Part shown: piece after piece, positions 1 through 20,154 of the stretch | Layout: each line of letters opens with the position of its first letter | How positions within the stretch are numbered: the stretch's first letter is position 1 | DNA from: a virus | Length of the DNA: 20,154 bases | IMG/VR virus record: IMGVR_UViG_3300015261_000168 | Location: 1-20,154 of that record | Direction: 5' to 3' (one strand) | The notes under the pieces: model-generated | Database searches by the model: none | Told to the model about the DNA's origin: nothing | Seen by the model: only the letters and a program-made list of their open reading frames with translations | Made by a program: the position numbers and the translations under genes

Positions 1-414
1 ATGTTGAACAGCAGTCAGTCGGTTGAAAGCAGGGCGGTGCCGCGGCAGGGGCGCCAGTTACAGGGACGCAGCAAGAAGTCGCAGCTGCATATCGCCCGCA
101 TCGCGCAGTACATTCGCGAGCAGGGCCAGGCCAGCGCGGCGCAGTTGTCCGCCTTGCTGGGACTCGATGCGGGCACCATGAGCCGCTATCTGCGCCACAT
201 GTGCGGCATGGGACAGATCCACCTGGCGCAGCGCCATTGCACGGAGCCGGGACGCCAGCGGCCCGCCCTGTACGCGCTGGGCGAGCAGGACGACGAGGTC
301 GACGGCTGGGCCGAACTGCCTCCGCAGGTGCGCCGCACGGCCAGCTGGCCGCGCGGTGCGGCGCGCCGCGATCCGCTGGTGGCGGCCCTGTTCGGGCCGG
401 CGCAGGACAACTAA
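1..414 (+). CDS. Small winged helix-turn-helix DNA-binding protein
   Basis: A 137-residue protein. Residues about 28-95 look like a winged helix-turn-helix: a first helix with HIARIAQYI, a second with SAAQLSALLGL, and a recognition helix around DAGTMSRYLRHM (about residues 56-67), followed by a short wing region rich in Gln and Arg. The N-terminal 25 residues are basic and probably disordered, and the C-terminal 40 are low in complexity and end in a hydrophobic RDPLVAALFG stretch. The ATG is at the window edge, so an upstream start cannot be excluded. The next gene begins 25 bp downstream with a good ribosome site, which suggests one regulatory operon. It probably controls phage or tailocin genes, but its target and sign (activator or repressor) are unknown. 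The HTH call is good; the role is inference. Confidence 0.7.
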   Translation: MLNSSQSVESRAVPRQGRQLQGRSKKSQLHIARIAQYIREQGQASAAQLSALLGLDAGTMSRYLRHMCGMGQIHLAQRHCTEPGRQRPALYALGEQDDEVDGWAELPPQVRRTASWPRGAARRDPLVAALFGPAQDN

Positions 415-439
415 GACAAGTATCAACGAGGAGAAAATA

Positions 440-982
440 ATGGGGTTTGCAGAAAAATTCATCGCATCGCTGTCGTCGCAGAACCTGCGCGACGATGCCG
501 TCCACCACGACCTGGACGTGATCGCGGCGGCCGCGCTGGCCGGCGACATGGGCGCCTTGCTGTGCCGCGTCAAATACGCGGACGGCACCATCAGCCGCCT
601 GTTCGAAGGCAATGCCGGCAACCTGGCGCAGCTGCTGCGTGCCTGGACGGCGGCCGTGACGCAGAAGGGCCGGGCACGGCGCTGGGTCAAGGCGCAGACG
701 GCCTGGGATGCGCAGGCCGCCAATACCTTGTACCGCCGCGTGGCCGAAGCGTCGCTCGCGCATTGGCTCGACAGCAAATGCAAGGTTTGCCACGGCACGG
801 GCGTCGTCGCCGCCATGCAGGCCGGCGCGCCGGTCGTCTGCAAGGCGTGCCATGGCGGCGGCGAGGCGGCCATCAGCTGCTCCGGCGGCTTCGAGCTCGA
901 ACGCATCAAGGATATGGTCAGCGAGCTGGAAGGTATCTTCCAGTCGCACGGGGTCCGCGCCATGCGCCGCCTGGGTCACTGA
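440..982 (+). CDS. Zinc-knuckle protein, probable lambda Q-type late antiterminator
   Basis: A 180-residue protein. The frame is open further upstream, but the ATG at 440 is preferred because GAGGAG lies just before it and the upstream part overlaps the preceding gene. The diagnostic part is two DnaJ-like CxxCxGxG motifs: CKVCHGTG (Cys114, Cys117) and CKACHGGG (Cys134, Cys137). Paired CxxC motifs about 20 residues apart are found in lambda Q-family antiterminators, where they bind zinc. The position fits: the gene ends about 20 bp before a candidate promoter, and two intrinsic terminators lie between that promoter and the first tail gene, the same geometry as Q, pR' and tR'. The protein would bind DNA near the promoter, join paused RNA polymerase and make it ignore terminators. 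The N-terminal 110 residues are helical and not otherwise recognised. Alternative: a DnaJ-like zinc protein of other function. Confidence 0.6.
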   Translation: MGFAEKFIASLSSQNLRDDAVHHDLDVIAAAALAGDMGALLCRVKYADGTISRLFEGNAGNLAQLLRAWTAAVTQKGRARRWVKAQTAWDAQAANTLYRRVAEASLAHWLDSKCKVCHGTGVVAAMQAGAPVVCKACHGGGEAAISCSGGFELERIKDMVSELEGIFQSHGVRAMRRLGH

Positions 983-1002
983 AAAGTTTTTTTGCAATAT
1001 GC

Positions 1003-1030
1003 CTGGCGCTGAAAAAAACGCCCCTACAAT
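1003..1030 (+). promoter_or_regulatory. Candidate late promoter
   Basis: TACAAT at 1025-1030 matches the sigma70 -10 box at five of six positions. The best -35 at 16 bp spacing is CTGGCG (1003-1008), which matches only three of six, so the promoter would be weak or need an activator. GGCG at 1005-1008 and CGCC at 1019-1022 form a short inverted repeat inside the spacer, where lambda Q binds in its own promoter. A start near 1037 would give a leader of about 290 nt before the tail tube gene, containing two terminators. Read by eye only. Confidence 0.45.
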
Positions 1031-1053
1031 AGAGTCTCGATCACGCAGCAACA

Positions 1054-1077
1054 GCAACACCGCAACACCGCAACACC
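1054..1077 (+). repeat. Three tandem copies of an 8-bp unit in the leader
   Basis: GCAACACC occurs three times head to tail at 1054-1061, 1062-1069 and 1070-1077, and is followed by a partial GCA. It lies 25-50 nt downstream of the predicted transcription start. It contains almost no G, so it would be an unstructured RNA segment, which could serve as a protein or Rho loading site. Function unknown; replication slippage is the likely origin. Confidence 0.8.
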
Positions 1078-1186
1078 GCAGGACCACATGCTTCTCCACT
1101 CGTAATAGACGCGTCTCTGGCGCGACACCGATAGGGGAAATCAGCGCAGCGAACCGCCTTCATGGCCCCCTTCGCCCATTCCGTCC

Positions 1187-1202
1187 GGCACGGCCCCGTG
1201 CC
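1187..1202 (+). promoter_or_regulatory. Leader hairpin upstream of the tandem terminators
   Basis: GGCACG and CGTGCC pair perfectly around a GCCC loop, giving a 6-bp GC-rich stem without a T tract. It sits 11 nt before the first terminator stem, so nascent leader RNA would fold into three successive hairpins. It may act as a pause signal; that is inference. Confidence 0.5.
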
Positions 1203-1213
1203 ACCCGGACGCC

Positions 1214-1249
1214 AGCCCGCCGCCTCACCGCGCGCGGGCTTTTTATTTT
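1214..1249 (+). terminator. Intrinsic terminator 1 in the late leader
   Basis: AGCCCGC (1214-1220) pairs with GCGGGCT (1234-1240), a perfect 7-bp stem, and is followed by TTTTATTTT. The end lies about 205-215 nt after the predicted start near 1037, close to the length of the lambda pR' leader that ends at tR'. It would block late transcription until antitermination. Confidence 0.75.
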
Positions 1250-1275
1250 CCCGATACTTGGCAGTTCCACCCCTC

Positions 1276-1302
1276 AAGACCGCACCTGCGGTCTTTTTTT
1301 TT
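1276..1302 (+). terminator. Intrinsic terminator 2 directly before the tail tube gene
   Basis: AAGACCGC (1276-1283) pairs with GCGGTCTT (1288-1295) around an ACCT tetraloop, and the 3' strand runs into nine T residues (1294-1302). This is the strongest terminator of the window and lies only 22 bp before the tail tube start codon. The Shine-Dalgarno-like GAAAGG follows it. Confidence 0.85.
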
Positions 1303-1324
1303 CATCCCACGAAAGGTATTACTT

Positions 1325-2530: not shown

Positions 2531-2550
2531 GCGGCTAGCGTCCGTACCGG

Positions 2551-2575: not shown

Positions 2576-2604
2576 TTCTCATCCTAATCAAGAAAGCAAA
2601 TTAC

Positions 2605-3057
2605 ATGAACAACGCACAAATGATCGCCTCGGCCGGTTTTGACATCTCCCTGCTGAATGACGCCAACAAATCCGTAGACCAGGTTCACCTGGTGTCGGTG
2701 TTGTTTGACGAAGACGGCGCACACAAGGCGGGCTTTGACATCGTCAGCAAAAATTCTGACCAGTATCGTGCCGTGATCCGCGAGACGTCGCTGCACGCCA
2801 TCAAGCGCTCAGTGCAGAAGAGCAAGCAGATCGACGCGAAGACCGACGAGGGTGCGGCGGAACTGTATGACCTGGCGGAAAACCGCAACATGAAGATCGC
2901 CATCGCCGTGGTGGTGGGTATGCCTGGTTTCGTCGACAAAGGCGTCCCGGTACAGCCTTCCCCGACTTTGCTGAAGGCGATTTTTGAAAAAATGCCGTCC
3001 TGGCAGGAAAAAGTGCTGGCGGCACTCGAGGCGGACGGCAATTTTTTGACGGTCTAG
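2605..3057 (+). CDS. Tail assembly chaperone G
   Basis: A 150-residue soluble, mainly helical protein. It lies between the tail tube and tape measure genes, where nearly all siphophages encode the chaperone that coats the tape measure before the tube polymerises around it. The core of the call is structural: a slippery heptamer lies ten nucleotides before the stop codon, and the downstream frame is the -1 frame, as in lambda G and T. No domain is recognised from sequence alone, which is usual, because these chaperones diverge quickly. The ATG at 2605 has only a weak purine-rich site (AAGAAAG) ahead of it. The unshifted product G should be the major form. Confidence 0.8.
   Translation: MNNAQMIASAGFDISLLNDANKSVDQVHLVSVLFDEDGAHKAGFDIVSKNSDQYRAVIRETSLHAIKRSVQKSKQIDAKTDEGAAELYDLAENRNMKIAIAVVVGMPGFVDKGVPVQPSPTLLKAIFEKMPSWQEKVLAALEADGNFLTV
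3042..3048 (+). promoter_or_regulatory. Programmed -1 ribosomal frameshift site (T TTT TTG)
   Basis: In the G frame the codons read AAT TTT TTG ACG GTC TAG. The heptamer T TTT TTG fits X XXY YYZ exactly: both tRNAs can re-pair on TTT after slipping one base back, and translation continues GAC GGT CTA into the T frame. A strong stem-loop lies 8-12 nt downstream: GCCGCC (3060-3065, with an alternative at 3057) pairs with GGCGGC (3107-3112), stacked on TTTGCCGA (3075-3082) with TCGGCAAA (3099-3106). Site, direction, distance and structure all agree with a stimulated -1 shift. Confidence 0.85.
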
Positions 3058-3065
3058 CCGCCGCC

Positions 3066-3401
3066 TTGCTGCTCTTTGCCGACGAACAGTTCGAGCGTTC
3101 GGCAAAGGCGGCCGATGGCAATGCGAAAGGCGAGCATCTGGATGCCGCGAAGCGTCATCCACTCTACCGGGAGCCGCAGGCTCCCGTTTGCGCGCAACTG
3201 CCGTTTGAACTGGCGCACGTGTGGCAGTTTTTCGTGCAGATGAACCGCAAGCGGCAGAGCGGCATGGCGGTTAACCCCTTGAGCAGCCTGGAGGTCCTGG
3301 CCTGGCAATTGCGTCATCGTATCCGCCTGACTACTTTCGAAGAGGATCTCATCGACAGGCTCGATGGTGCTTATCTCGCATATCAGAATACGTCGCAATA
3401 G
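3066..3401 (+). CDS. Tail assembly chaperone T domain, made as a G-T fusion
   Basis: This frame has no convincing start of its own: the first possible initiator is TTG at 3066 with no Shine-Dalgarno sequence. It lies in the -1 frame relative to G and is entered at 3048 through the slippery heptamer, so the real product is a fusion of about 265 residues (148 of G plus 117 more). The T part is hydrophilic and helical, with a Phe/Trp-rich middle (FELAHVWQFFVQMNR) and an acidic end (FEEDLIDRLDGAYLAYQ). In lambda the T domain recruits tube subunits to the tape measure complex that the G part has coated, and the G to GT ratio matters. The next gene is the tape measure, as expected. Confidence 0.8.
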   Translation: MLLFADEQFERSAKAADGNAKGEHLDAAKRHPLYREPQAPVCAQLPFELAHVWQFFVQMNRKRQSGMAVNPLSSLEVLAWQLRHRIRLTTFEEDLIDRLDGAYLAYQNTSQ

Positions 3402-3505: not shown

Positions 3506-3516
3506 ATGGGTAAATT

Positions 3517-6500
3517 ATGACTGTTGATATTGCAACGCTATTGATACAAGTCGATACGCTTGAAGTACGCATTGCGGCCAATAACCTGGTGCACATGCAG
3601 CAAGCCTGTACGCGGGCAGCTGAAGAAACGTCAGCCCTTGAGAAGGTGACGGAGAAATACACGAAGGCATTGTCCAGTCTGGGCATTGCGAATGACATCG
3701 GCCAGATCGTCAAGATGTCGGATGCATATACCAAGTTCACGGCACAGTTGCGCATGGCGACAGGCACCACGCAGGAATACGGCGAGGCTTACGATAACGT
3801 CAAGCGTATTGCTGCCACGGGACAAACGGAACTGGCCGCCACCGCAGGCATGTATACCAAAATTACGGATGCCACGGAAAAGCTGGGTATCAACCAGGCC
3901 CAGGTCGCCAACATTACCGAGGCCTTGAATCTGGGGGTCAGGATCAGCGGCGCATCGGCCGAGGAGTCCGCGACGGCGATCGAAGCCTTGTCCGACTCCT
4001 TCGTCAATGGCGCGATGAGTAGCCGGGAATTTAACGCCATCAACCAGAGTGCGCCCGAAGTCATGGCGGCACTGGCCGCTGGCATGGGCGTACCGGAAGA
4101 AGCGCTTGCTGCTCTGGCGGCTACCGGCAAGATCAGCGCCGATGTGATGGCGATCGCATTGCCGAATGCGCTGGGCGATTTGCGTAAGGAATCAAAAAAA
4201 TTCGACACCATCGGTGGTGCATTTACTGTGTTTAGCAACAATGTGCTGGAATTCACCGGGCAGATGGTCGAATCGACGGGCGCGGTCAGTGTACTGACTG
4301 GCGGCCTCAACTTTCTATCGAACAACCTGACGCTGGTGGTGGGCTTGCTGGAAACCTTGACTGCGGTGAAGTTTGTCAACTGGGCCAGCACCGCCGTCAA
4401 GGGCATCTATGCGAAGGTTACGGCCAATCGCGCCATGCATGCATCGACCCTGGCGGTTGCGAGTGCCGATGTAGCAGCGACAGGCGCCGCTTCTACGCTG
4501 GCTGCGGCGCGCGTGGCGGAGCTGCAGGCCACGATACGAACCAGCCAGGCCGATGTGGCTTTGGCGCTCACGACCAACGGCCTAATTCCCGCCCAAGCCC
4601 GTGCTGCCATTGCCGCTGAAGCGCATGCTGCGGCGTTGATGGCACAAATGGCTGCGATGCGGGCCGCGTCTGTGGCAGGCGGTGTGCTGCGTGGTGCGCT
4701 GGCATTCTTGGGCGGACCTATCGGATTGATCGTGACGGCGCTGGGTATCGGAGCTACGGCCTGGGGCATGTGGGGGAAATCATCGTCCGATGCGTCTAGA
4801 TTGGCCTCCGAGGAAAGTGAACAGAGCATGTCTCGAATCATATCCAATCTTGAAAAGCAGAATGTGAAAATACGTGAGCAAATTGTCTTGGCACGTAAAG
4901 AAAGTCCTCAACTTGCCAATGTCGAGTCGCCAGCTGCACAAGAGGCGGCAGCGGTGCTTTCTCGATTGAATGCGCTACGTAGTCGTAGTACACCGCTTAG
5001 TAATGTTGATCAGGTCATGGTTGCTAATTTGAGTGGCATGTATAAGCAATTAACGGGAGTCATGAAAGAAAATCTCTCCGTTAAAGCAGAGTTAGATGTG
5101 GTTACTCAGAAAAGGTCTACGTCTGAATGGATGAGCGAGTACGCCACAACAGCGGAAAAAATGGCTGCGAGACTGGCATTGGTAGGTAAATCGTACAAAG
5201 ATGGAGTGATTCCTCCTGATTTGTATAAGCGCATCCAGGAGAGTTTTGGTGTCCAAGATGATGGAGGTAAAAGGGTAGCGTCAGCGCTTGATGAGTCCAC
5301 CAAGGCTGCCAATGGATTTATTGAATCTCTACGTAATGAAACTGCGCAAGTTGGCTTGAGCGTCGATCAGATGCGAATGATGACTGCTGCACGCGCAGCG
5401 GCAAAAGCCCCGAATGCCGAATTGCGTATGGAGATAATGGCGACTGCGCTGGCGAATGACATTGCCCTTAAGTCTTGGGAAAATTTGGAAGATGCTCGTA
5501 AATCTTCTGAGGCGGAAACACAGAAGCTGACCGATGAGCGAAATACATCCTATGCAGCGGTTGTGGCAGAACTTGCCGCAAACAAAGAGGCAATCACCAC
5601 TTATGGTTTGAGCAAAGTGCAAATTCAGGCCCTTACTCTAGCGCGGGACGAAGAGCGTTTGTCACAGCGCGAGACACTAAAACTGAGCAAGGAAGAATTG
5701 ACCCACTTAGAGCGCATGATTGGGGGACGTAAGGCGAACGTCGCTGCTTTGAACGATTTGCATGCTCGTGAGAAAGAAACGAAGGATGCAGAAGAGCGGT
5801 TGGAGGAACAAAAGAAACTGTGGAATTCGATCGATTCGGCCGCGCACGGCGCATTTGTATCTATCTTCGATGCTGGGAAGTCTGCTTTCGATGGCCTGCG
5901 TAGTACGCTGAAAAATGGCCTGTTGGATATGCTTTATCAAATGACCGTCAAGAAGTGGGTCCTGAATGTTGGCGCATCTATATCGGCCGCCAGTGCTACG
6001 GGCATGGCGTCGGCCGACGGTTTAGGTATAGCAAGCGGGACCATAGATGGAGGCATTGGCGGTATTGCGAGCTTGATGCAGAGCGCTAAAACCGCGTATA
6101 CCATCGCCACAGCGGGTTTCGCGACTCTCACGACAGGGATGGGCACCAGCGTTGTAAGTATGGGCACTCTGTTTGGCTCGACGGCGATTGAGGCATTTGG
6201 TGCTGGCCTAGGTAGTACGGGGTTGGTGGGGACGGCCGACGCGGCTGGACTCTATGCCGCGTCAGGTGGTTTGGGGAGCGCTAGCGCGGTGACTGCGGGC
6301 GCTTACGCGGGCGCCGCCATCACGGCTGCTGCCGGCATCGCCGCGGGCATACTTGGCGGGAAAATGATTTCCGGGCAGTACGGCAGTGGTTCCACGGTAA
6401 TGGTTGGCACTGGTGCTGGCGCTGTTGCTGGGGCAATCATTGCTGGCCCAATTGGTGCGGCCATTGGCGGTGCTTTGGGTGGTGTGGTTGGTGGTATCGG

Positions 6501-8334
6501 AAACCGTATTTTTGGTATGGGAGACAAAAAATACGGCGATACTGGGATCGATGGCATATTGTCCGGCACTGAATTTTCAGGAACGGAGTATGCCAAGTGG
6601 ACCCAAAAAGGCGGTTGGCTGAGAAGCAATAAGAAGGGAACTGACCTTGAAACGGTTGATGCCACGATGTCCGCAGCGTTCGTGGAAACCTACGCAGCCA
6701 TTCGTAACGTGTCCGCCTCCTTGGCCAATGTCTTCGGCATTGATACATCCAGCCTGGCAACCCGCACCCAGGCACTTCATATCAATTTAACCGGCCTCGC
6801 GACCGAGGCGGATCGCCTCGGTGCTGTCACGAAATTCTTTGAAGGGGTCGGTAATGCGATCGCAGTGGAGCTGTTGCCCAATATTGGCGAATTCAAGGTC
6901 GGTAACGAGGAACTCAGTACGACGCTACAACGTGTCGCCGGTAATTACTCCGGTATCGATGCAGCGCTTCAGTTGATCGGTCGTACGTCGCAAGATGCGT
7001 TCGGTGCTGTTGGCGTGGCAACGATTGGAGCAAGGGAAAATCTGGTCAAGCTGGCCGGTAGTTTGGATGCTTTCACCAGCGGTACAAGCTTCTTTGCGGA
7101 AAATTTCCTAACTGAGGCTGAGCAGATGGCCCCATTGCTGTCGACCGTAGCGGACACCTTGGATAAGTTGGGCTTAGCAGGCGTCAAGACGGTTGACCAG
7201 TACAAGGGGGTTGTGCTGGGCCTAAATTTGGCCAGTACTGCTGATCAAGAACTATATATCAAACTTTTGGCACTGGCGCCTGCGTTCAAAACGGCTAGCG
7301 AATACAGTAACCAGTTAGCTGCTGCAACGGGCAATTTCTCCGCTGTAAGCAAGACGGCCAGCGACATCGCCAGCGAGCGCAGGGATATGCAGCAGCAGTT
7401 GAACCAGCTGACGCAAAGCGAAGCGCAGCTGCTGGCCTCCCAGCGCGCTGGCATCGCGGAAGGCAATCGCGGGCTGTTCGACCAGATCCAGGCCGTCAAG
7501 GCGGTGACCAGCGCGAAGGATGCGCTGGCCAAAGCCTACGAGACGGAATCGGCGGCGGCCAAGTCGGCGCTGGAGAAATCGAAATCGTGGGTGACGACCT
7601 TGAACGGGCTCAATTCCAGCATGGCGCTGGGCGCCCAATCGACGCTGACGCCGGAGCAGAAGTACGCCGAGGCGCGGGCGCAGTTCGAGAAGACACTGGC
7701 GGCCGCAAATGCCGGCGACGCGACGGCGCAATCGGGCTTGTCTGCCGCCGAGCAGGCGTTTTTGACGGCATCGCAAGTGGTCAATGCGTCCGACGCCCGC
7801 TATGCGGCCGATTATGCCCGCGTGGTCGAAGCGAACAAGGAAGCGTTGAAATGGGCAGCGGCGCAGGTCGACGTGCAGCAGGCCAGCCTCGATGCACTCA
7901 ATGCCCAGGTATCGGGCTTGATCACCATTAACGACAGCGTGCTGACGGTGGCGCAGGCCATCGCCGGCCTGCGGGCAGCAATGGGCGGTGCGGCGGACCT
8001 GGGAGTGAAGTTCAGCAATCCCCCCGTGGTCGCGGCACTGGCCGCGATGACTTCCCCCGTTACGGCGGCCGTCTTCGACCCCGTACGCTATTCCTCGGCC
8101 GCGAACGTGGGTTCCGAGGTTCTTGTCGCAGAAATCCGCGGCCTGCGCGAGGACAACCAGGCCATGCGCGTGGAGCTGGAAGGCTTGCGTGCCGATCAGC
8201 GGGCGCAAACGGGCGCCACCATCCAGGCCACCTTTGAATCGAACGCCAACGCTGCCAGGACGGTGGTCGATGGCGTGGACAAATCGTCCAGGGCATCTGC
8301 CTGGGCCACTGCAGTGAAAGGAGAATACGCATGA
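3517..8334 (+). CDS. Tail tape measure protein
   Basis: At 1605 residues this is by far the longest gene, as expected for the protein whose length sets tail length. Residues about 65-250 fit the phage tape measure N-terminal domain: MSDAYTKFTAQLRMATGT, then a helix-rich stretch with SAEESATAIEALSDSFVNG and SREFNAINQSAPEVMAALA, ending near NNVLEFTGQ. A hydrophobic segment lies at about 392-420. Residues about 765-815 (WNSIDSAAHGAFVSIFDAGK and following) resemble the lambda-type tape measure C-terminal region. A Gly/Ala-rich hydrophobic stretch at about 925-1001 could insert into the host membrane. The C-terminal 350 residues are mostly coiled coil. At about 1.5 angstroms per helical residue, a tail near 240 nm is expected. 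GC content drops in the middle third, suggesting mosaic origin. The start has a weak ribosome site. Confidence 0.93.
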   Translation: MTVDIATLLIQVDTLEVRIAANNLVHMQQACTRAAEETSALEKVTEKYTKALSSLGIANDIGQIVKMSDAYTKFTAQLRMATGTTQEYGEAYDNVKRIAATGQTELAATAGMYTKITDATEKLGINQAQVANITEALNLGVRISGASAEESATAIEALSDSFVNGAMSSREFNAINQSAPEVMAALAAGMGVPEEALAALAATGKISADVMAIALPNALGDLRKESKKFDTIGGAFTVFSNNVLEFTGQMVESTGAVSVLTGGLNFLSNNLTLVVGLLETLTAVKFVNWASTAVKGIYAKVTANRAMHASTLAVASADVAATGAASTLAAARVAELQATIRTSQADVALALTTNGLIPAQARAAIAAEAHAAALMAQMAAMRAASVAGGVLRGALAFLGGPIGLIVTALGIGATAWGMWGKSSSDASRLASEESEQSMSRIISNLEKQNVKIREQIVLARKESPQLANVESPAAQEAAAVLSRLNALRSRSTPLSNVDQVMVANLSGMYKQLTGVMKENLSVKAELDVVTQKRSTSEWMSEYATTAEKMAARLALVGKSYKDGVIPPDLYKRIQESFGVQDDGGKRVASALDESTKAANGFIESLRNETAQVGLSVDQMRMMTAARAAAKAPNAELRMEIMATALANDIALKSWENLEDARKSSEAETQKLTDERNTSYAAVVAELAANKEAITTYGLSKVQIQALTLARDEERLSQRETLKLSKEELTHLERMIGGRKANVAALNDLHAREKETKDAEERLEEQKKLWNSIDSAAHGAFVSIFDAGKSAFDGLRSTLKNGLLDMLYQMTVKKWVLNVGASISAASATGMASADGLGIASGTIDGGIGGIASLMQSAKTAYTIATAGFATLTTGMGTSVVSMGTLFGSTAIEAFGAGLGSTGLVGTADAAGLYAASGGLGSASAVTAGAYAGAAITAAAGIAAGILGGKMISGQYGSGSTVMVGTGAGAVAGAIIAGPIGAAIGGALGGVVGGIGNRIFGMGDKKYGDTGIDGILSGTEFSGTEYAKWTQKGGWLRSNKKGTDLETVDATMSAAFVETYAAIRNVSASLANVFGIDTSSLATRTQALHINLTGLATEADRLGAVTKFFEGVGNAIAVELLPNIGEFKVGNEELSTTLQRVAGNYSGIDAALQLIGRTSQDAFGAVGVATIGARENLVKLAGSLDAFTSGTSFFAENFLTEAEQMAPLLSTVADTLDKLGLAGVKTVDQYKGVVLGLNLASTADQELYIKLLALAPAFKTASEYSNQLAAATGNFSAVSKTASDIASERRDMQQQLNQLTQSEAQLLASQRAGIAEGNRGLFDQIQAVKAVTSAKDALAKAYETESAAAKSALEKSKSWVTTLNGLNSSMALGAQSTLTPEQKYAEARAQFEKTLAAANAGDATAQSGLSAAEQAFLTASQVVNASDARYAADYARVVEANKEALKWAAAQVDVQQASLDALNAQVSGLITINDSVLTVAQAIAGLRAAMGGAADLGVKFSNPPVVAALAAMTSPVTAAVFDPVRYSSAANVGSEVLVAEIRGLREDNQAMRVELEGLRADQRAQTGATIQATFESNANAARTVVDGVDKSSRASAWATAVKGEYA

Positions 8335-11413: not shown

Positions 11414-11694
11414 GCATTGGTATTACGACCTATAAAGCCAATGGCACGCCCATGATTACCCCCGACGGTGCTGGCGGCATCTATGTGGAAACGTGGCGAC
11501 AAGGCCCCGAGCAACCTGCGGTGCGCGTGTATTCCGGATTGCGTGGCATGTCCTTGCGAGTGTTTCAAGTAATGGGAGGTGTATTTGCCTGGGTGGTCGG
11601 CCAGGATGGCCATGGCAACCCCACGATTACCTTCTCGTTTGAATACAAGGACGCCTATGGCGGCGATCTGATCTTGTTGGTATTCGCATCATGA
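11410..11694 (+). CDS. Small tail tip accessory protein
   Basis: A 94-residue protein coupled by ATGA to the central fibre gene. It starts MSIGITTYKANGTPMI, a pattern seen at the start of many phage tail proteins of the form G-I-x-x-x-x-x-x-G-x-x-x-I. It is beta-rich and ends in a hydrophobic strand (GGDLILLVFAS). The following gene starts with a similar pattern and is also ATGA-coupled, so the two may be related minor tip components. No enzymatic motif or membrane segment is seen. Function unknown; the tail role is inferred from position. Confidence 0.6.
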   Translation: MSIGITTYKANGTPMITPDGAGGIYVETWRQGPEQPAVRVYSGLRGMSLRVFQVMGGVFAWVVGQDGHGNPTITFSFEYKDAYGGDLILLVFAS

Positions 11695-12482: not shown

Positions 12483-12490
12483 GAAAACTG

Positions 12491-13138
12491 ATGATTCTCA
12501 AAAACTTCACCACGCCAAATGGCGTGGCGGTCGGCGTTCATATGCTCAAGCGAATCGAAATCAATGCGCCATTCGATACTGCGCAGCTTTCCGTGCATAG
12601 CTACGCCAGCGAAGTGGCTTATCTGGCCGGTTCCGGCCTGGCCTGGAACACCCCGCTGCAGATGCCATTATTGCAATTGCAAGGAGAGCTGGGCAGCATT
12701 GCCGAGCGGTGGCTGACCACTGACGCGGCCAGTCCGTTTGCCGGCGGCAGCATTGTCGCGGACCGCAGCGGCACGCTCGATACGGCCCGGACCCGCGCAT
12801 GGGCGCGCATCAAGCAGGCGCGCGCGCTTGCCGAGACTGCGGATTTCGCGTGGGACGGCGCCCTGTACCAAGCAGACAAGGACCGCATCACTGGCGCCAC
12901 GCAGCAGGCCCTGCTGGCGCAAGCTTCCGGCCAGCCGTACGGCATCGACTGGACCTTGTCGGATAACACGCAGGTGACGCTCGATGCGGCCGGCATGGTC
13001 GCCGTGGGCGCCGCGCTGGGGGCGCACGTTGCCAAGGCGTTCGCTATTGCCCTTCAGTTGCGCAGGCAGATCGCTGCCGCCACTTCCCTCGACGCGCTTG
13101 AGGCCATCGTTTGGCCAGTGCAGGGTGCACATGAGTAA
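12491..13138 (+). CDS. DUF4376-type tail protein
   Basis: A 215-residue protein. Residues about 98-215 carry the pattern of the DUF4376 domain found in phage tail and fibre-associated proteins: an Arg/Ala-rich helix (RTRAWARIKQARALAETADF), then WDGALYQADKDRITGATQQA, a D-N-T-Q-V-T-L-D-A segment and a long C-terminal helix with LDALEAIVWP. The N-terminal 95 residues are divergent and may form the specific contact. In other phages such proteins sit beside fibre genes and may help fibre assembly or attachment. The stop overlaps the ATG of the next gene (TGAGTAA arrangement, ATG at 13131), so translation is probably coupled. There is only one copy, although the fibre cassette that follows exists twice. 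Confidence 0.7.
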   Translation: MILKNFTTPNGVAVGVHMLKRIEINAPFDTAQLSVHSYASEVAYLAGSGLAWNTPLQMPLLQLQGELGSIAERWLTTDAASPFAGGSIVADRSGTLDTARTRAWARIKQARALAETADFAWDGALYQADKDRITGATQQALLAQASGQPYGIDWTLSDNTQVTLDAAGMVAVGAALGAHVAKAFAIALQLRRQIAAATSLDALEAIVWPVQGAHE

Positions 13139-13961
13139 CTTGCGCATCATTTACGACAACGCCGCCGACCGCGCAGTGTTGTCGGCGTCGAGCCAGGCTG
13201 GCGGGCTTGGGCCTGCCAATTTGCAGCGCGAAGGAAAGTCTGCGGTGCTGCGTTCAATTGGCACGGTACAGAGCATCGTAGCAACGTGGCTGGCACCGGA
13301 AATTGTCGGCGGCGTGGCCCTGCCGTTTTGCAACCTGACCCCAGAGGCAAGCATCCGCGTGCGCGGCTACGTCGAGCCTGGCGACGCTGCGCCTGCATTC
13401 GATACCGGCGTCGTGCCGGCGTGCGAGTATGCGCGGCTGGGCATGTGGGATTGGGGCGCATTGCCGCTGGGCTTGAATGCCTACAGTTACGGCGGCGGTA
13501 CCTACGCCCGTTGCTGGTTCCAGATGCGCAGCATCAGGAAACTGGTGATCGACCTGGCCGATCCCGACAATCCTGCCGGCTACATCGAGGCTGCGCGCCT
13601 GGTGGCAGGGGCTTACTGGAGTCCGGAACAGAACGCTTCATACGGTGCCGGCATTGCGCCGGTCGATACCAGCAGCCAGTACCGCAATGGCGCCGGCGAA
13701 CAGAAGGTGGAGCGTGGCGTGATGTACCGCAAGCTGTCGCTCGCGCTCGATCACATGACACCGTTGGACCGTGCCGAACTGTGGCGCATCGTGCGCGGCA
13801 ACGGCCTGTCGCGTCCGCTTTTCATCAGTCTGTATCCGGATAGCGATGACGTCGAGCTGGAGCAGGCGCACCAGGTGTATGGACGCCTGGCTAACCTGGC
13901 CGCCATCACCACGCCATCTTTTCAGGCTTATGCCACCAACATTGAAATAGAGGAACTGTAA
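13131..13961 (+). CDS. Fibre adaptor-like protein, copy 1
   Basis: A 276-residue protein. The start at 13131 is chosen because the paralogue at 16138 begins with the same MSNLRII; the frame is open upstream, but inside the previous gene. Residues 1-100 resemble a galactose-binding-like beta sandwich (SQAGGLGPANLQ, then TWLAPEIVGGVALPFCNL and SIRVRGYVEPG). The middle has YIEAARLVAGAYWSPEQN, an R-L-x-x-G-x-Y-W-S-P motif shared with the paralogue, and the last 90 residues form a second domain with LDHMTPLDRAELWRIVRG. No enzymatic residues can be named. The gene ends TAATG with the fibre gene, so the pair is one translational unit. It may connect the fibre to the tail or bind host sugars; the role is inferred. 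Confidence 0.6.
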   Translation: MSNLRIIYDNAADRAVLSASSQAGGLGPANLQREGKSAVLRSIGTVQSIVATWLAPEIVGGVALPFCNLTPEASIRVRGYVEPGDAAPAFDTGVVPACEYARLGMWDWGALPLGLNAYSYGGGTYARCWFQMRSIRKLVIDLADPDNPAGYIEAARLVAGAYWSPEQNASYGAGIAPVDTSSQYRNGAGEQKVERGVMYRKLSLALDHMTPLDRAELWRIVRGNGLSRPLFISLYPDSDDVELEQAHQVYGRLANLAAITTPSFQAYATNIEIEEL

Positions 13962-15799
13962 TGGGTGATTTTTTTTACTATGGTCAGAAGGATACGATCC
14001 AGCGCTTGAATGAGCTGGCCGGGCGCGGCGCTGTGGTGGCGTCGTATGCGCCAAAGGTTGGGATGTCGCCGGTGGGCGGGGCGAATGGATTCATGAATCC
14101 GGCGTGGCTTGATCCGAACTTGCCAATTGCAACAAATTCTCCTGTGGCGGTGGGCGTTACCAATAAATATGGATACAGCTACATTGGACAAAACCCCCCG
14201 ACAGACCTCTGGTATCGGATTGCCACATTTGCCATGGATAGCAGCTCCAATGCACAGCATCTGCGCATTGACGGGGTATTGAATGACGGCTGGGCAGCAA
14301 ACGCCAGTTCCCCCTTTGTCCTCATGCTGGGTGTTCGGGGTGGCTTTTACTACGATTCGACGTTTAATGGCGCCATTTCGATAAACGCGCGGATACAGGT
14401 TTTTCAGCAAGTGAATGGAACTTTTGAGGTGTACTTGAATTTCCGAGCCGGGACGTTTGGTTCGGCGTCATTTAGTCTGCAGGGCTTTACCGCCACAACA
14501 TACGCACAGCCAGTATCAGTGACAGCGACGCCCGCTGGAACAATGGTGTATGACTCGGGAAATACTGCGGCCTATCCGCCAAGATACAGGGGGTTTGCAC
14601 CTGCGGAGACTAATACATCTACTGCAGCCACTATGTTCAGGTCTACCGTATTTGTTGGAAACGGTGGCACCAGCACATCATTTCTTAACTCGGGGAGCGA
14701 AGAAAATACAATGGCCGGCGGTGCATATCGGAATATGCTGACACTGGGTATAGGCGGAATAGCTGGCCTTGCGTATCCGGGAACATTTCATTGGGATGTT
14801 TCTGCCGGTAACAACGTACCATACTATCAGGGCTATCGTATGCGCCTTAAGGCCTTCGATGCTGGTTCTGGGAATCACTCTGGAACATTGCTTTCCATCT
14901 CAGGAGATGGGCAAATCTACATGCCGCGACTTCGGGCGGGTACTCCGACTGAAGTAGTCGCAACTAATTCCCATAACATAGCGCAGGATGGGGTGCAGGG
15001 CGCTGATATTTTGGTTGTGTCTAATTCGGCTGGGTTCCGAAGGTGCGATGGGGACTGGGGGAACACAGCGAACGCAGCAATGATCGTAATGGCTAATACT
15101 GTCACTGGACGCAGTAGTAATAACAAAGGCACGGTCAATACGATGGGTAATGACTATGCTGAATATATTTTCAAAAGTTCGATGTGCGGTATCGTCGCCC
15201 CTGGCCAAATAGTAGGCATCACCGCCGACAATAGGGTCACCGACATGTGGGCCGATGCTACCATGTTTTCGATCAAATCGACCGCACCATCTTTCGTCGG
15301 TGGTGATTCCTGGGCAAATGACGTAGGGCAGCGCCCATCGCCCCAGGCAGGACCAGCGCCGACCCAGCCCTTGCGTCGCGCCGATGTGCTCACGCAGCAG
15401 CCAGTGCCCGGCGCTAATCCACCGGAATATGAGTACGTGGTAATGGAACCTGGCGACACCGATGACGTATGGGCCGAAAAGCAGGCGGCCTTCGTTACTG
15501 CATTGGCCGCCCACAACGCCGCCGTGCAGCAGGACGCCGAAGCCATGGCCAACTTCGACGCGGCGCTGGAAGCCGCGCGCCAGACAGTCGACCGCATCGC
15601 CATCGCCGGCCGCGTACCGGTCAACGTGCTGGGCGCCCAGCCGGGCGACTACATCGTGCCGGTGCAGGACGGTGCCGGTATCAAGGGCATCGCCGTGCGC
15701 GAGGATGATTTGAGCATGAAGCAGTACCTGCACGCCGTCGGCCGCGTGATCTCGATCGAGCCGGACGGCCGGGCCTACGTGATGGTCAAGGCCGTGTAG
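13961..15799 (+). CDS. Tail fibre (receptor-binding) protein 1 with C-terminal self-processing chaperone domain
   Basis: A 612-residue protein. The N-terminal part (MGDFFYYGQKDTIQRLNELA) resembles that of fibre 2 and probably anchors to the tail. Residues about 45-390 are beta-rich, of lower GC, unlike fibre 2, and likely bind the receptor. From Asp398 the protein reads DYAEYIF, then G-x-I-V-x-P-G-Q-I-V-G-I and FVGGDSW, then after a helical insert VDRIAIAGRVPVNVLG, GDYIVPVQ and HAVGRVISIE. This order fits the phage Peptidase_G2-type intramolecular chaperone seen in phi29-like appendage proteins, which trimerises the fibre and cuts itself before the D of DYAE. Cleavage after Asn397 is predicted but not shown. 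A run of eight T lies in codons 3-6. A terminator follows the stop. Confidence 0.75.
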   Translation: MGDFFYYGQKDTIQRLNELAGRGAVVASYAPKVGMSPVGGANGFMNPAWLDPNLPIATNSPVAVGVTNKYGYSYIGQNPPTDLWYRIATFAMDSSSNAQHLRIDGVLNDGWAANASSPFVLMLGVRGGFYYDSTFNGAISINARIQVFQQVNGTFEVYLNFRAGTFGSASFSLQGFTATTYAQPVSVTATPAGTMVYDSGNTAAYPPRYRGFAPAETNTSTAATMFRSTVFVGNGGTSTSFLNSGSEENTMAGGAYRNMLTLGIGGIAGLAYPGTFHWDVSAGNNVPYYQGYRMRLKAFDAGSGNHSGTLLSISGDGQIYMPRLRAGTPTEVVATNSHNIAQDGVQGADILVVSNSAGFRRCDGDWGNTANAAMIVMANTVTGRSSNNKGTVNTMGNDYAEYIFKSSMCGIVAPGQIVGITADNRVTDMWADATMFSIKSTAPSFVGGDSWANDVGQRPSPQAGPAPTQPLRRADVLTQQPVPGANPPEYEYVVMEPGDTDDVWAEKQAAFVTALAAHNAAVQQDAEAMANFDAALEAARQTVDRIAIAGRVPVNVLGAQPGDYIVPVQDGAGIKGIAVREDDLSMKQYLHAVGRVISIEPDGRAYVMVKAV

Positions 15800-15820
15800 C
15801 AAATCCGTCATCCACCTCCC

Positions 15821-15842
15821 AAACCCGCTTCGGCGGGTTTTT
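15821..15842 (+). terminator. Intrinsic terminator 5, after fibre 1
   Basis: AAACCCGC (15821-15828) and GCGGGTTT (15833-15840) form a perfect 8-bp stem closed by a TTCG tetraloop, followed by TT and an AT-rich tail. The same stem and loop are found after fibre 2 at 18843-18862, as part of a duplicated segment. Confidence 0.8.
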
Positions 15843-15914
15843 CATTTCCTCCACCTTGGAGGCAACCATGGCCCTCGAGACCACCGTCGCTGGCGGCGCA
15901 TTGATCAATCTGTT
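15821..15914 (+). repeat. Direct repeat A: terminator plus first codons of the holin
   Basis: This roughly 94-bp segment matches 18843-18937 almost base for base, with scattered changes: terminator stem-loop, Shine-Dalgarno region, ATG and the first 15 or so codons of the holin gene. The two copies flank the second fibre cassette in direct orientation. The match stops at CTGTT. Recombination between the copies would remove cassette 2 and join fibre 1 to the intact holin. Confidence 0.85.
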
Positions 15915-15918
15915 GTAG
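15868..15918 (+). pseudogene. Truncated holin gene remnant
   Basis: A 16-codon frame, MALETTVAGGALINLL, then TAG. It matches the first 16 residues of the full holin at 18891 with two or three changes (A7V, K14N, F16L) and has the ribosome site TTGGAGG before its ATG. No membrane segment remains, so it cannot work as a holin. Its breakpoint is followed by TGTAGCAAAT, ten bases that also occur at the end of fibre 1 (15795), which hints at recombination by short homology. Confidence 0.85.
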
Positions 15919-16137
15919 CAAATGGGGCTGTCATGACGATCTCGCCGCTGATCCGGTCTGCTGTGATGGGCTGTCCAAACTCCGACCCGTCATACGATCC
16001 CAGCGCCGGCACCAATCGCTGGCATGTCGAGTTCTACGGGGCATGTGGCGCCGCCCGTCCATTACCGAGCCTATCGGCGTTGCCACTGGGTTTATTTCGC
16101 CAACCACTTACCTCATCCTGAAAGGGGCACTGCTGCC
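15919..16137. other. Spacer between holin remnant and second fibre cassette
   Basis: Together with the terminator and remnant this makes a 338-bp stretch with no full gene. A 62-codon + frame starts at 15933 (MTISPLIRSAVMG and so on, stop 16121) but has no good ribosome site and no recognisable motif. A minus frame of 35 codons (16012 to 15905) also exists; neither is convincing. AAAGGGG near 16121-16127 is the ribosome site of the next gene. The DNA resembles no other part of the window and may be debris from the event that brought in cassette 2. Confidence 0.6.
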
Positions 16138-16992
16138 ATGAGCAATCTTCGCATCATCCACGACAACGCCGCTGACCGCGCGGTGCTGACTGCATCGAGC
16201 CAAACCGGCGAACTGGGCCCGGCCAACCTGCAGCGCGACAGCAAGAATGCCGTGTTGCGCGCCAGCGGCACTGCACAGATCATCACCGCCACCTGGCCGA
16301 CGCAGGAGTCCATCGCCTGCGTGGCGCTGATTTCCACCAACATGACCAGCAGCGCGCGCATGCGCGTGCGCGGTTATGCCCAGCCGGGCGGTGCCGTACC
16401 GGTGTTCGACACTGGCAGCATCTTCCCATGCCCGGCCGCCGTGCACGGCTCCTATCCCTGGGGCGTGCTGCCGCTCGGCTGGAACGGCTATCAGTGGGGC
16501 GGCGTGAACACCTGGGCGCGTGGTGGCGGCGCCGACGGCGTGACATGGTTCGCGCCTGTGCGCGTGCGCCAGATAGTGATCGACGTGTCTGCGCCGCAAA
16601 GCCCGGAAGGCTACCTGGAAATTTCGCGTCTGGTGGTGGGCAACTACTGGTCACCGCAATATAACGCCGAGTATGGCGCCCAGTTGCAGACCCAGGATAG
16701 CAGTGAAAATTACCGCACGGGTGCAGGCAACCTGAAAACCGCGCTGGGCACGACCAGCGACAAGCTGAGCATCAATCTGACGCACCTGACACCGATGGAC
16801 CGCGCGCGCTTCATGCGCATCCTGCGCGAGAACGGCAAGGGCAAGGCAATGCTGTTCAGCTTGTTCCCGGAAAATCCGGACCCGCTGCTGGAGCAGGACT
16901 ACATGCTGTATGGCAAGGCCAGCAATATCGACGCGGTAACTACGCCGTACTTTGACACTTATTCTGCACCACTACAAATCGAAGGAATTTAA
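16138..16992 (+). CDS. Fibre adaptor-like protein, copy 2
   Basis: A 284-residue paralogue of the 276-residue adaptor. Both begin MSNLRII(Y/H)DNAADRAVL and share the GPANLQR segment, the MRVRGYAQPGG type strand, YLEISRLVVGNYWSP against YIEAARLVAGAYWSP, and LTPMDRARFMRILREN against MTPLDRAELWRIVRGN. The main difference is the middle (about residues 95-140), where this copy has a longer Trp- and Gly-rich loop (WGVLPLGWNGYQWGGVNTWA). That points to diversification at an exposed surface. The start is fixed by homology to copy 1. The stop is directly followed by the ATG of fibre 2, again making a pair. Confidence 0.6.
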   Translation: MSNLRIIHDNAADRAVLTASSQTGELGPANLQRDSKNAVLRASGTAQIITATWPTQESIACVALISTNMTSSARMRVRGYAQPGGAVPVFDTGSIFPCPAAVHGSYPWGVLPLGWNGYQWGGVNTWARGGGADGVTWFAPVRVRQIVIDVSAPQSPEGYLEISRLVVGNYWSPQYNAEYGAQLQTQDSSENYRTGAGNLKTALGTTSDKLSINLTHLTPMDRARFMRILRENGKGKAMLFSLFPENPDPLLEQDYMLYGKASNIDAVTTPYFDTYSAPLQIEGI

Positions 16993-18822
16993 ATGGCTGA
17001 TAAATTTTATGACGGTATGCCCAACGTCAACGAGAAATTGAATGAAATGGATCGGGCGTTTGCGGCGGGACCGTACAATGCCTTGCCATTGTCCGGCGGG
17101 AATATGAAGGGCACGATCTATTCGAATGCCCCGATCACGACAACTCAATATGTGCAAGCTTGCGCGTACGGCCCAGGCTCTATTGTGAACACCGGTATGA
17201 AGACTGGCTGGTGGCGAATCGGAAAGTTTAATTCTGCACAGCAGGGAACCGAGGCATCAATTCGTGTAAGTGGAACCACGTCGTACGGTGCTGTTGCCGG
17301 TATGTCGAACGCCATGGCAACCATCATCCAGCTCCGGGTAGACAACGACAGCAAGATACGCGGTGTTTTCCATAACGAAGGCGGAACGACAAATAACACG
17401 GTATCGGAAGTGACCATCACGGATGATGGTCAGGTATATATCCTGTGCGGTACCTTCTTCTCCCTGGCCGTTTACTGCGAGTCCACTTGCTGGCAGGATT
17501 CTGACGTATCGTATTACGGTGTAGCGGCCGAGCCCCCAGCCGGGACCTTGGCGTCTTCTATCTTTGGCTTGAAACTTGGTGCGCAGAATACGGTAACGTT
17601 CGAGCGGCAGCGGACTACCTTCGATTCTTCCTCAGTTCTGGTTGGTCCAAAGCAAATAATTGCTGGAGAGATATCTAGTACTCTTTGGGCAAGCGCTCTT
17701 CGGGCGCCGAATGATGGGGCGGCGGGGGGCGCTGGCATATATTATGAAGTGCTGTCCATGGGCGTCGCATCGGTTCCAAGTTATTCCAATGCAGGTAGAT
17801 TTTTTTGGAGTGCCCGTAGTCATCCGGGGAACTCTGGAAAAGGATTCCAACTACGTTTGAATGCTGTCGATGCTAGCTTGCCTGACAATGTCACATCAGT
17901 TCTGGATATTAATGGCACCGGCGACCTTACTCTGCCAGGCGTTATTACTGCTGGCCCAGTTCTCCCGTTAAGTGCGCATCAGTTAACCCGTAGGACTGCG
18001 GAGTTCGGTGAACTTTGCTACGTTGGGCGCGTCGAGACAGGGGTCACTTCCTCGTGTTTTGCCATTCGAGCGTCAAATGGTGCCGGCGGTTGGGGCAACA
18101 GTGCTTCGGTTGCATACGTCGGGCGAAACTCCACGACATCGCGCTCGATTAGCGCCGCTGGCACCATCAATGCCGGCGGTACCGATTACGCTGAATATAT
18201 GTTAAAGGCACCTGGATGCACGGGTATTCTTCCGGGGCAGATTGTCGGCATTGATGTTGATGGAAAACTAACCGACCAATGGCAGCGCGCCATTGCCTTT
18301 GCTGTTAAATCGACTGATCCTTGTATGGTTGGCGGGGATCGTTGGGCGCGGCATTTGGGTGAGCGTCCGGTGCCTGTTGAACGTCTCATGCCTTCCACGC
18401 GTCAAGTGCTGCTCAGTGAGGCTGTTGCTGCCATTGACGCGGTGATGGAAGTGGTGGATGGCAAGCTGGTTGAGGTTGCGCCTGCCGTGCCGGCCCGCGA
18501 AGCGCAATATCGCGAAGAAGCAATACCGGGAGATACCGATGAAGAATGGGGCTTTAAATGCGCACCCGGCCTCGCGTTTGAGGCGGCCCTGGAAGCGGCG
18601 CGTCAGCAGGTTGACCGCATCGCTTTCTGCGGTCAGGTACCTGTGAACGTCCTGGATGCCACACAGGGGCAGTACATCGTCCCGGTGCAGAAGGGCGATG
18701 GCATAGGCGGCTTGGCTATACGCGAGGAGGACATGACACTCCAGCAATACATGCGCGCCATCGGCAAGGTCATCGCCATCGAAGACGATGGGCGCGCCCG
18801 TGTCATCGTGAAGGTGGCATAA
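16993..18822 (+). CDS. Tail fibre (receptor-binding) protein 2 with C-terminal self-processing chaperone domain
   Basis: A 609-residue paralogue of fibre 1. The first residues (MADKFYDGMPNVNEKLNEMD) follow the same M-x-D-x-F-Y-x-G and LNE pattern, then residues about 40-390 are quite different, beta-rich and of lower GC. The C-terminal third matches fibre 1 again at roughly 60-65 percent by eye over its last 80 residues: DYAEYML, GILPGQIVGIDVDGK, MVGGDRW, then VDRIAFCGQVPVNVLD, YIVPVQ and AIGKVIAIEDDGRA. The Asp of DYAE is residue 398 in both fibres. The helical insert within the domain differs (PGDTDEEWGF and so on). It would be trimeric and processed after Thr397 if the family rule holds. 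A terminator and the lysis genes follow. Confidence 0.75.
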   Translation: MADKFYDGMPNVNEKLNEMDRAFAAGPYNALPLSGGNMKGTIYSNAPITTTQYVQACAYGPGSIVNTGMKTGWWRIGKFNSAQQGTEASIRVSGTTSYGAVAGMSNAMATIIQLRVDNDSKIRGVFHNEGGTTNNTVSEVTITDDGQVYILCGTFFSLAVYCESTCWQDSDVSYYGVAAEPPAGTLASSIFGLKLGAQNTVTFERQRTTFDSSSVLVGPKQIIAGEISSTLWASALRAPNDGAAGGAGIYYEVLSMGVASVPSYSNAGRFFWSARSHPGNSGKGFQLRLNAVDASLPDNVTSVLDINGTGDLTLPGVITAGPVLPLSAHQLTRRTAEFGELCYVGRVETGVTSSCFAIRASNGAGGWGNSASVAYVGRNSTTSRSISAAGTINAGGTDYAEYMLKAPGCTGILPGQIVGIDVDGKLTDQWQRAIAFAVKSTDPCMVGGDRWARHLGERPVPVERLMPSTRQVLLSEAVAAIDAVMEVVDGKLVEVAPAVPAREAQYREEAIPGDTDEEWGFKCAPGLAFEAALEAARQQVDRIAFCGQVPVNVLDATQGQYIVPVQKGDGIGGLAIREEDMTLQQYMRAIGKVIAIEDDGRARVIVKVA

Positions 18823-18842
18823 ACACTGTGCTTGCTACATGC

Positions 18843-18866
18843 AAACCCGCTTCGGCGGGTTTTTTT
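18843..18866 (+). terminator. Intrinsic terminator 6, between fibre 2 and holin
   Basis: AAACCCGC (18843-18850), TTCG loop, GCGGGTTT (18855-18862) and seven T residues in a row (18860-18866). Its T tract is longer than that of the copy after fibre 1. It separates structural genes from lysis genes, so holin expression depends on read-through, antitermination or a promoter not seen here. Confidence 0.85.
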
Positions 18867-18937
18867 ATTTCCACCACCTGAAAGGCAATCATGGCCCTCG
18901 AAACCACCGCCGCTGGCGGCGCATTGATCAAACTGTT
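18843..18937 (+). repeat. Direct repeat B: terminator plus start of intact holin
   Basis: Second copy of the segment at 15821-15914. In this copy the holin frame continues intact beyond CTGTT. Being flanked by these repeats, the 3-kb second cassette could be lost or amplified by host recombination. Confidence 0.85.
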
Positions 18938-19319
18938 TGGCGTGCCCGTGCTGGCCGGCGCCGCCGCTACATCGCTGGGCTTCATGTTCATGTGGCCCCA
19001 ATCCACCAAGGAGGCATTTATTCGTTTTTGTTCCAGCATCATCATTTCCACCTTTCTCGGTCCCGTGCTCGTGGCGGCCGTGCTGTCGTGGTGGCCCAGC
19101 CTGTTCGACAGTGCGAAGACGGTGGCGGGCCTGTATGGCGGCGATCCTGCCACGGGATTTCTGTTCATCGCCGCGCCGCTGATGGTGGCGGCCGGCTTAC
19201 CCGCCTGGTGGGTGCTGGGCGCCTGCGTGCGCTGGTTCGACAAGCGGCGCGGCAAGGATATCGGCGAACTGGCGGCTGATGCGGCCGCTGCCGTCAAGGA
19301 TGTGCGGGGCATGCTGTGA
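18891..19319 (+). CDS. Holin
   Basis: A 142-residue membrane protein with three predicted membrane segments: about 14-35 (FGVPVLAGAAATSLGFMFMW), 47-68 (SIIISTFLGPVLVAAVLSWW) and 89-112 (FLFIAAPLMVAAGLPAWWVL). A charged tail, RWFDKRRGKD, follows, then an Ala-rich helix. Three segments and a basic C-terminus suit a class I holin, which makes holes in the inner membrane so that the endolysin reaches the cell wall. GAAAGG lies before the ATG. It lies directly before the endolysin gene, and the stop TGA overlaps a GTG start. The family was not recognised beyond this topology. Confidence 0.8.
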   Translation: MALETTAAGGALIKLFGVPVLAGAAATSLGFMFMWPQSTKEAFIRFCSSIIISTFLGPVLVAAVLSWWPSLFDSAKTVAGLYGGDPATGFLFIAAPLMVAAGLPAWWVLGACVRWFDKRRGKDIGELAADAAAAVKDVRGML

Positions 19320-19831
19320 CCGGCGCCCAATTGATGCAGATCATGCCGCTGGCCGGCCGCCGCGCTACGCTGTTCCTCGCGCCCTTGAATGCGGCGATGG
19401 CCGAGTTCAGCATCGATACGCCGCTGCGCCAGGCCTCGTTCCTGGCGCAGGTGGGCCACGAATCGGGACAGTTGCGCTATGTGCGCGAGCTGGCCAGCGG
19501 CGCGGCCTATGAAGGACGCGCCGACCTGGGCAATGTGATCGCCGGCGATGGCGTGCGCTTCAAGGGGCGCGGCTTGCTGCAGGTGACGGGGCGCGCCAAT
19601 TATGCGGCGTGCGGCGTGGCGCTGGGCCAGGATCTGCTGGCGGCGCCGCAGTTGCTCGAGCAAACGGCTTTCGCGTGCCGCTCGGCGGGCTGGTTCTGGC
19701 AATCGCGCGGCTTGAACCGCCTGGCCGATGCGGGCGACCAGGAACGGGTGACGCGTCGCATCAACGGTGGCGTGAACGGCCTGGCTGAGCGCCTGGCCTT
19801 GTACCAGGCAGCGCGCAAGGTGCTGGCATGA
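19316..19831 (+). CDS. GH19-type endolysin (chitinase-like muramidase)
   Basis: A 171-residue protein with GTG start overlapping the holin stop. It has the marks of phage GH19 endolysins: QASFLAQVGHESGQL with the likely catalytic Glu49, YEGRADLGN with Glu66, and then F-K-G-R-G-L-L-Q-V-T-G-R-A-N-Y (residues 82-96), and near the end RRINGGVNGLAER. Residues 101-140 carry the usual helix pair with W-F-W. There is no signal peptide or N-terminal membrane anchor, so it must rely on the holin to cross the membrane. It cuts glycan strands of peptidoglycan between N-acetylmuramic acid and N-acetylglucosamine. The length is normal for a single-domain phage lysin without a cell-wall-binding domain, as usual in Gram-negative hosts. 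Confidence 0.92.
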   Translation: MTGAQLMQIMPLAGRRATLFLAPLNAAMAEFSIDTPLRQASFLAQVGHESGQLRYVRELASGAAYEGRADLGNVIAGDGVRFKGRGLLQVTGRANYAACGVALGQDLLAAPQLLEQTAFACRSAGWFWQSRGLNRLADAGDQERVTRRINGGVNGLAERLALYQAARKVLA

Positions 19832-20154
19832 AGCCGTCGTTGAGCATTGCGGCCATGCTGTTGCTGTTGGGCGCGGCCGTGTTTTGCGCCCAGCGCTGGG
19901 GCCGCGAAGCGGGCCGTGCTGCGTGCGCGGCGCAAGTGAGCGAGGTGCAGGGCGTGTTGCGGCGCCAGAACCAGGCCCTGAACGCGATGCGGGAGGAGGG
20001 CGCGCGCCGGTCGGCACGGGTAAGGCAGGCGCAGGCCGCGGCGCAGGCCGGGCAGGCGGACGCGCAAGCGGCTGCTGCGCGCATCCTGGCCTTGCAGCCC
20101 GAAGGCGATGCCTGCCGTGCCGCCGAGGCGCTGATCGCCAGCGAAATGCCATGA
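19828..20154 (+). CDS. Rz-like inner-membrane spanin
   Basis: A 108-residue protein coupled by ATGA to the endolysin gene. Residues about 5-21 form one N-terminal membrane segment (LSIAAMLLLLGAAVFCA), followed by a long Ala/Gln/Arg-rich helix to about residue 90 that would be a periplasmic coiled coil, and a short end with Cys (DACRAAEALIASEMP). This is the layout of Rz, the spanin subunit that joins an outer-membrane lipoprotein (Rz1) to fuse the two membranes in the last lysis step. I looked for a nested Rz1 in the other two frames and saw no lipobox. The gene ends in ATGA, so Rz1 may start at 20151 and run beyond the window. Confidence 0.8.
   Translation: MKPSLSIAAMLLLLGAAVFCAQRWGREAGRAACAAQVSEVQGVLRRQNQALNAMREEGARRSARVRQAQAAAQAGQADAQAAAARILALQPEGDACRAAEALIASEMP

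Follow-up and report, generated by a model that had tools for sequence, protein, structure and literature searches.

F-type pyocins of Pseudomonas aeruginosa are encoded by loci that carry genes for a flexible tail and for lysis but no head genes, under the control of a repressor/activator pair. Few F-type tailocins have been described so far. One of them is rhizoviticin of Allorhizobium vitis, whose antagonism is recA-dependent, with a LexA-family repressor as the proposed switch (PMC10811719). The Janthinobacterium locus described here resembles this F-type tailocin in having genes for tail and lysis but none for heads, and in having complete prophage relatives that do possess head genes (PMC10811719). 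An initial annotation of the DNA had stated that such tailocins are little described in this bacterial group; in the literature searched, with subscription papers mostly outside its reach, we found no F-type tailocin in Janthinobacterium, in its family, or in any of the Betaproteobacteria, and the locus is apparently the first flexible-type tailocin in its group. We propose, with a probability of roughly 85%, that it is a domesticated, SOS-controlled F-type (flexible, non-contractile) tailocin of Janthinobacterium.

The window, that is, the whole stretch of 20,154 bases that was analyzed, is an entire IMG/VR record, a predicted provirus trimmed at the edge of the host sequence. Most of its close viral relatives begin at the identical base, where the HTH gene has its start codon. 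Because the record is trimmed, a window devoid of head genes is no proof in itself, and whole genomes were needed. Searches against Pfam and PHROGs families showed that all of the genes in the window are intact and lie on the + strand. The order is an S24 repressor (outside the window), an HTH regulator, a Q-like protein, a leader with terminators, tail tube, chaperones, tape measure, hub, fibres, holin, endolysin, and spanin. The tail portion begins with the major tail tube protein (1325–2530; PF18906, Phage_tube_2, E 5e-28; phrog_290), which also matches the 'Major tail structural protein' of PDB entry 8xan_B (E 5e-5). It is followed by the tail assembly chaperones (2605–3057 and 3066–3401; PF23812, Phage_TAC_18, E 4.5e-13), a tape measure protein of 1605 residues (3517–8334; PF20155, TMP_3, E 1.2e-44), and the protein at the hub position (8331–9800), which matches phrog_8917, a family with no annotated function. 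A search of the latter against sequences of solved structures gave nothing usable, and its AlphaFold2 model, built with nine homologues, had a mean pLDDT of 48, too poor for use. The lysis cassette belongs to the same unit as the tail genes and consists of a holin-like protein with three hydrophobic stretches (18891–19319; phrog_1024), a GH19 endolysin (19316–19831; phrog_181, E 9e-67; PF00182, E 2.5e-9), and a spanin-like protein (19828–20154), so named for its position after the endolysin, its match being to phrog_3774 (E 5e-7), for which no function is annotated. The gene list of the initial annotation thus stands with respect to presence, integrity and strand, the name 'hub' being a designation by position only. 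The same searches bore out its remark that terminase, portal, capsid, and integrase are missing from the window, and none of the proteins in the window matched a contractile sheath family in PHROGs or Pfam. A search of Rfam found no RNA family, and PADLOC returned weak, chance-level matches only.

The regulatory genes lie at the left end. The repressor gene is located approximately 100 bp upstream of the window in divergent orientation (L023:7809-8579, − strand), and its product is an S24/XRE protein of the self-cleaving type (Peptidase_S24, PF00717, E 5e-19). The first gene past it, at 1–414, encodes a winged-helix regulator with a FeoC/MarR-like HTH; it is syntenic in 22 tailocin loci and in nine holin-only loci (see below), and among 295 genomes of the family it is confined to Janthinobacterium. 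Inspection of the gap between the two genes revealed a palindrome, GACTTTA-N14-TAAAGTC, that overlaps the promoter-like sequence TTGACT-N17-TAAAGT and is retained in G014 too, the locus that diverges most. The next gene, at 440–982, encodes a Q-like protein with a DnaJ-type zinc finger (phrog_127, a weak match at E 9e-4) that is 62% identical to the protein preceding the head genes in the Janthinobacterium prophage FT13W; judged from its sequence, it may be a late antiterminator. Reduced units composed of a repressor and a Q-like gene were also seen at other chromosomal sites in two genomes (L188 in G038, ~3.607 Mb; L190 in G033, ~1.594 Mb), where the next gene encodes a small membrane protein or is fibre-like, and tail genes are missing.

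A scan of bacterial genomes detected the tube gene, at 87–100% identity, in 16 Janthinobacterium genomes, and a genus-wide search detected near-identical loci in 24 of 40 genomes, the tube gene being free of stops in all. For comparison, 22 loci with their flanks were assembled from fetched genome pieces. The repressor lies 49–78 bp from prpE in 18 of the 22, and 58 bp from prpF in one; on the right, a xanthine permease gene is found 0.2–1.2 kb past the lysis genes in 19 of 22, other host genes taking its place in the rest. Neither integrase nor replication genes were found at the locus. The comparison places the locus at one fixed site, typically between prpE and the xanthine permease gene. 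Complete genomes show host genes at either end, so the cluster is a chromosomal locus with defined limits. According to the initial annotation, intact terminase, portal, and capsid genes adjoining the window and transcribed with it would count against a tailocin; in the 22 loci, host genes bound the cluster instead.

Related complete siphoprophages live in Janthinobacterium, some of them in the same genomes as the tailocin locus. The FT13W prophage (L102-L104) begins with an S24 repressor (49% identical), a replication region, and the Q-like gene. Its head block comprises a DUF2280 protein at the terS position, terminase, a DUF4055 protein at the portal position, a Mu F-like protein, scaffold, Gp13-like capsid, adaptor, head closure, neck, and tail terminator, and is followed by tube (77%), chaperones, tape measure, hub (87%, at the equivalent position), fibres, holin (75%), and endolysin (78%). 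After the Q-like gene, the window (1100–1247) and FT13W (88028–88175) have in common a leader block, TCGTAAT...CACCGATAG, that ends in the terminator GCCCGC...GCGGGC-TTTTTATT (T1, 1215–1247 in the window). A second terminator (...GGTC-T8; T2, 1276–1302 in the window; hairpin at 100160–100183 in FT13W) and a purine-rich ribosome-binding site are positioned immediately 5′ of the tube gene in both. Between the two terminators, FT13W carries 12.0 kb of head genes (88175 to 100160), whereas the window has 29 bp (1247 to 1276). The initial annotation had supposed the head genes to be lost from the stretch linking the Q leader to the tube gene; related complete prophages with exactly that order, and homologous terminators at both edges of 12.0 kb in one case and 29 bp in the other, confirm the supposition at the nucleotide level. 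None of the thirteen proteins of the head block had a match in the window or in any of the 22 loci (best E 0.08), whereas 15 of 15 prophage controls matched. Siphophages normally need a tail terminator to cap the tube. No tail-terminator gene was found at the locus, either in the 22 loci or in the window; the tube is either closed by a different protein or controlled in length without a terminator.

Within the tail genes, a conserved core is combined with parts that vary from locus to locus. A −1 frameshift site, TTTTTTG, lies 13 nt before the stop codon of the first chaperone gene, in frame in 23 of 23 loci, and the heptamer is kept across chaperone alleles that are merely ~47% identical. The tape measure falls into two length classes, of 1059–1114 and 1513–1605 residues, the window belonging to the long class, and two tail lengths are predicted on this basis. 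Chaperones and tape measures behave as exchangeable alleles, tape-measure swaps being partly independent of the chaperone alleles. In one of the 22 loci, in the complete genome G048 (L112, ~11091-14304), a frameshift divides the tape-measure gene into parts of 677 and 473 codons, which reflects either natural loss or a sequencing error. The fibre region ranges from 4.4 to 9.1 kb and holds one or two modules, the longest being that of the window (~9785–18822). There, a tail-tip or fibre protein of 542 residues (9785–11413; 68% identical over its full length to an FT13W protein) is followed by small variable genes (11410–13138; 94, 263, and 215 residues, the last being a DUF4376/tail fibre protein), by fibre module 1 (13134–15799; 275 and 612 residues), which is hypervariable between loci, and by module 2 (16135–18822; 285 and 609 residues), a second divergent copy; both modules match phrog_8610 and phrog_34132. 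The distal fibre of the first module is at best about two-thirds identical to its counterparts among the loci, and that of the second (609 residues) is 96% identical to proteins of G032 and G015; the modules are 55–81% identical to those of FT13W. Recombining fibres on a conserved core are a pattern known from other tailocins (PMC13195805). The fibre region of G015 also contains a partial holin copy with a stop codon (L186; G015:C33:197329-197499), ~3 kb before the intact holin gene, which may have been left behind when a fibre module was transferred from the end of a prophage.

The core genes are under purifying selection similar to that on flanking host genes, and they mostly track the host. 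Median dN/dS values were 0.057 for the holin, 0.07 for the tube, 0.098 for the repressor, 0.105 for Q, 0.126 for the endolysin, 0.146 for the HTH regulator, and 0.160 for the hub, as compared with 0.093 for prpE and 0.086 for the permease. Synonymous divergence of the regulators, tube, and holin is near that of the flanks, and the distances of the repressor, HTH, Q, tube, holin, and endolysin correlate with those of the host flanks (r 0.76–0.94); the correlation is weak for the hub (0.46) and nil for the chaperone. Fibres and tape measures are swapped between loci. The same gene set is present across deeply split species, with the core intact in 22–23 loci and the holin 142 residues long in every locus where it was detected; among the 22 loci, the search recovered no spanin in G013 and G014, and in G014 it did not recover the holin either. 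One could envision that the locus is a decaying prophage remnant, which lost its head genes by chance and whose other genes are eroding, and its descent from a prophage lineage, the broken tape measure of G048, and the reduced repressor-Q remnants at other sites (G038 and G033) would be in keeping with such a history. Core genes that remain intact with dN/dS like that of metabolic neighbors, a gene set unchanged over such distances, and the retention of the frameshift site and the terminators all argue against decay, and we consider this explanation very unlikely.

An empty insertion site was sought in the genomes lacking the tail genes, and a holin-only allele was found in its place. In nine genomes, representing nine species (G042, G043, G052, G041, G017, G035, G018, G019, and G046; loci L135-L141, L144, and L145, e.g., L139:8986-12547), the site before the permease gene contains only the repressor, the HTH gene, and a gene for a 142-residue holin; 7 of the 40 genomes have neither allele at the site. 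Sister pairs are 92–97% identical from prpE to the end of the HTH gene, where the identity breaks, to restart ~100–190 bp before the permease gene. The holins of the short allele form one clade (support 100/100), differ by ~27% from the tailocin holins, and show a dN/dS of 0.143. In a tree of the flanks, built from two genes with a single genome for each species, carriers of the holin-only allele are interspersed among tailocin carriers, and supported branches force at least five changes. With the carriers of a single holin clade scattered in this way, two old alleles are exchanged as cassettes. The short allele is either a working lysis module or a remnant that persists stably. A further-reaching hypothesis, which we regard as rather unlikely, is that a full tailocin and a minimal SOS-controlled lysis or suicide module lacking the weapon are two ancient alleles, exchanged as cassettes by recombination within their common flanks and maintained by balancing selection between producers and non-producers. 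The short allele at this site hints that lysis may be of use by itself, which speaks for the possibility that the tail-derived particle serves an end other than bacterial killing, such as effector delivery to eukaryotes or biofilm lysis. As neither an effector gene nor a sheath was seen, and hypervariable fibres fit the choice of bacterial targets, this alternative is highly improbable.

Another scenario is that the element depends on a helper, supplying tails for heads made by a related prophage, such as the complete ones that reside in some tailocin genomes. However, 12 tailocin genomes contain neither a related capsid nor a related tail terminator on any contig, and the positive control for this search recovered the tail-terminator family in 13 of 13 control genomes; moreover, the connector and terminator genes for joining a head are missing, and there are no packaging genes, all of which makes helper dependence extremely unlikely. 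That the window belongs to a complete phage, its contig truncated or its head genes elsewhere in the unit, was suggested by the trimmed record and by the complete prophages of the genus, some in the same genomes, but is barely conceivable and was rejected, given that host genes lie directly on both sides in complete chromosomes and that none of the loci has head genes.

We return, then, to the F-type tailocin, which the initial annotation had put forward as a candidate and for which we found tail genes, a lysis cassette, no head genes, no sheath, and a stable locus under selection. Points that weigh against this reading are the missing tail terminator, the interrupted tape measure of G048, the spanin and holin not recovered in G013 and G014, the weakness of the Q-like match, and the seven genomes with neither allele. 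The headless particle, its induction, and its killing activity are predictions from these genes. Upon DNA damage, RecA would stimulate self-cleavage of the repressor, freeing the HTH/Q promoter; we infer SOS release in the manner shown for rhizoviticin (PMC10811719). The Q-like protein would then let transcription pass the leader terminators, and tube protein, frameshifted chaperones, and tape measure would build a flexible tail whose length is set by the tape measure. Holin, endolysin, and spanin would lyse the producer cell, and the released tails would kill relatives picked by the variable fibres, probably via membrane permeabilization. As to its origin, the locus probably arose from a local siphoprophage lineage that lost its replication genes and the head/connector/tail-terminator block, and was then kept as a chromosomal locus.

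Janthinobacterium is known for protecting amphibians against fungi. In this genus, the whole route by which a prophage gave rise to a weapon can be followed, with a complete relative at hand and the head-block junction known to within ~30 bases. There are dozens of natural variants that differ in fibres and tape-measure length, and target range, the length of headless tails, and tube capping without a terminator become testable in culturable bacteria.

The closest relative in sequence, the FT13W prophage, shares with the locus the Q gene, leader, terminators, tube, hub, fibre modules, holin, and endolysin, and differs in its replication genes and the 12 kb block from terminase to tail terminator, which are missing from the tailocin locus. 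The R-type tailocins of Burkholderia (BceTMilo and BglaTNB6; PMC11524443) also belong to Betaproteobacteria but are contractile, whereas the window has no sheath gene. F-type pyocins are alike in gene content (reviewed in PMC12090994), a likeness drawn from their description; they have lambda-like tails and regulators of their own, whereas the Janthinobacterium locus has kept the Q-like gene and leader terminators and occupies another site. With rhizoviticin, for which SOS control was shown, the locus shares a LexA-family repressor (PMC10811719). Rhizoviticin, described in one strain, keeps replication genes and an integrase remnant (PMC10811719); unlike it, the Janthinobacterium locus combines two regulators with a repressor, occupies one site throughout the genus, and stems from a siphoprophage lineage of Janthinobacterium itself.
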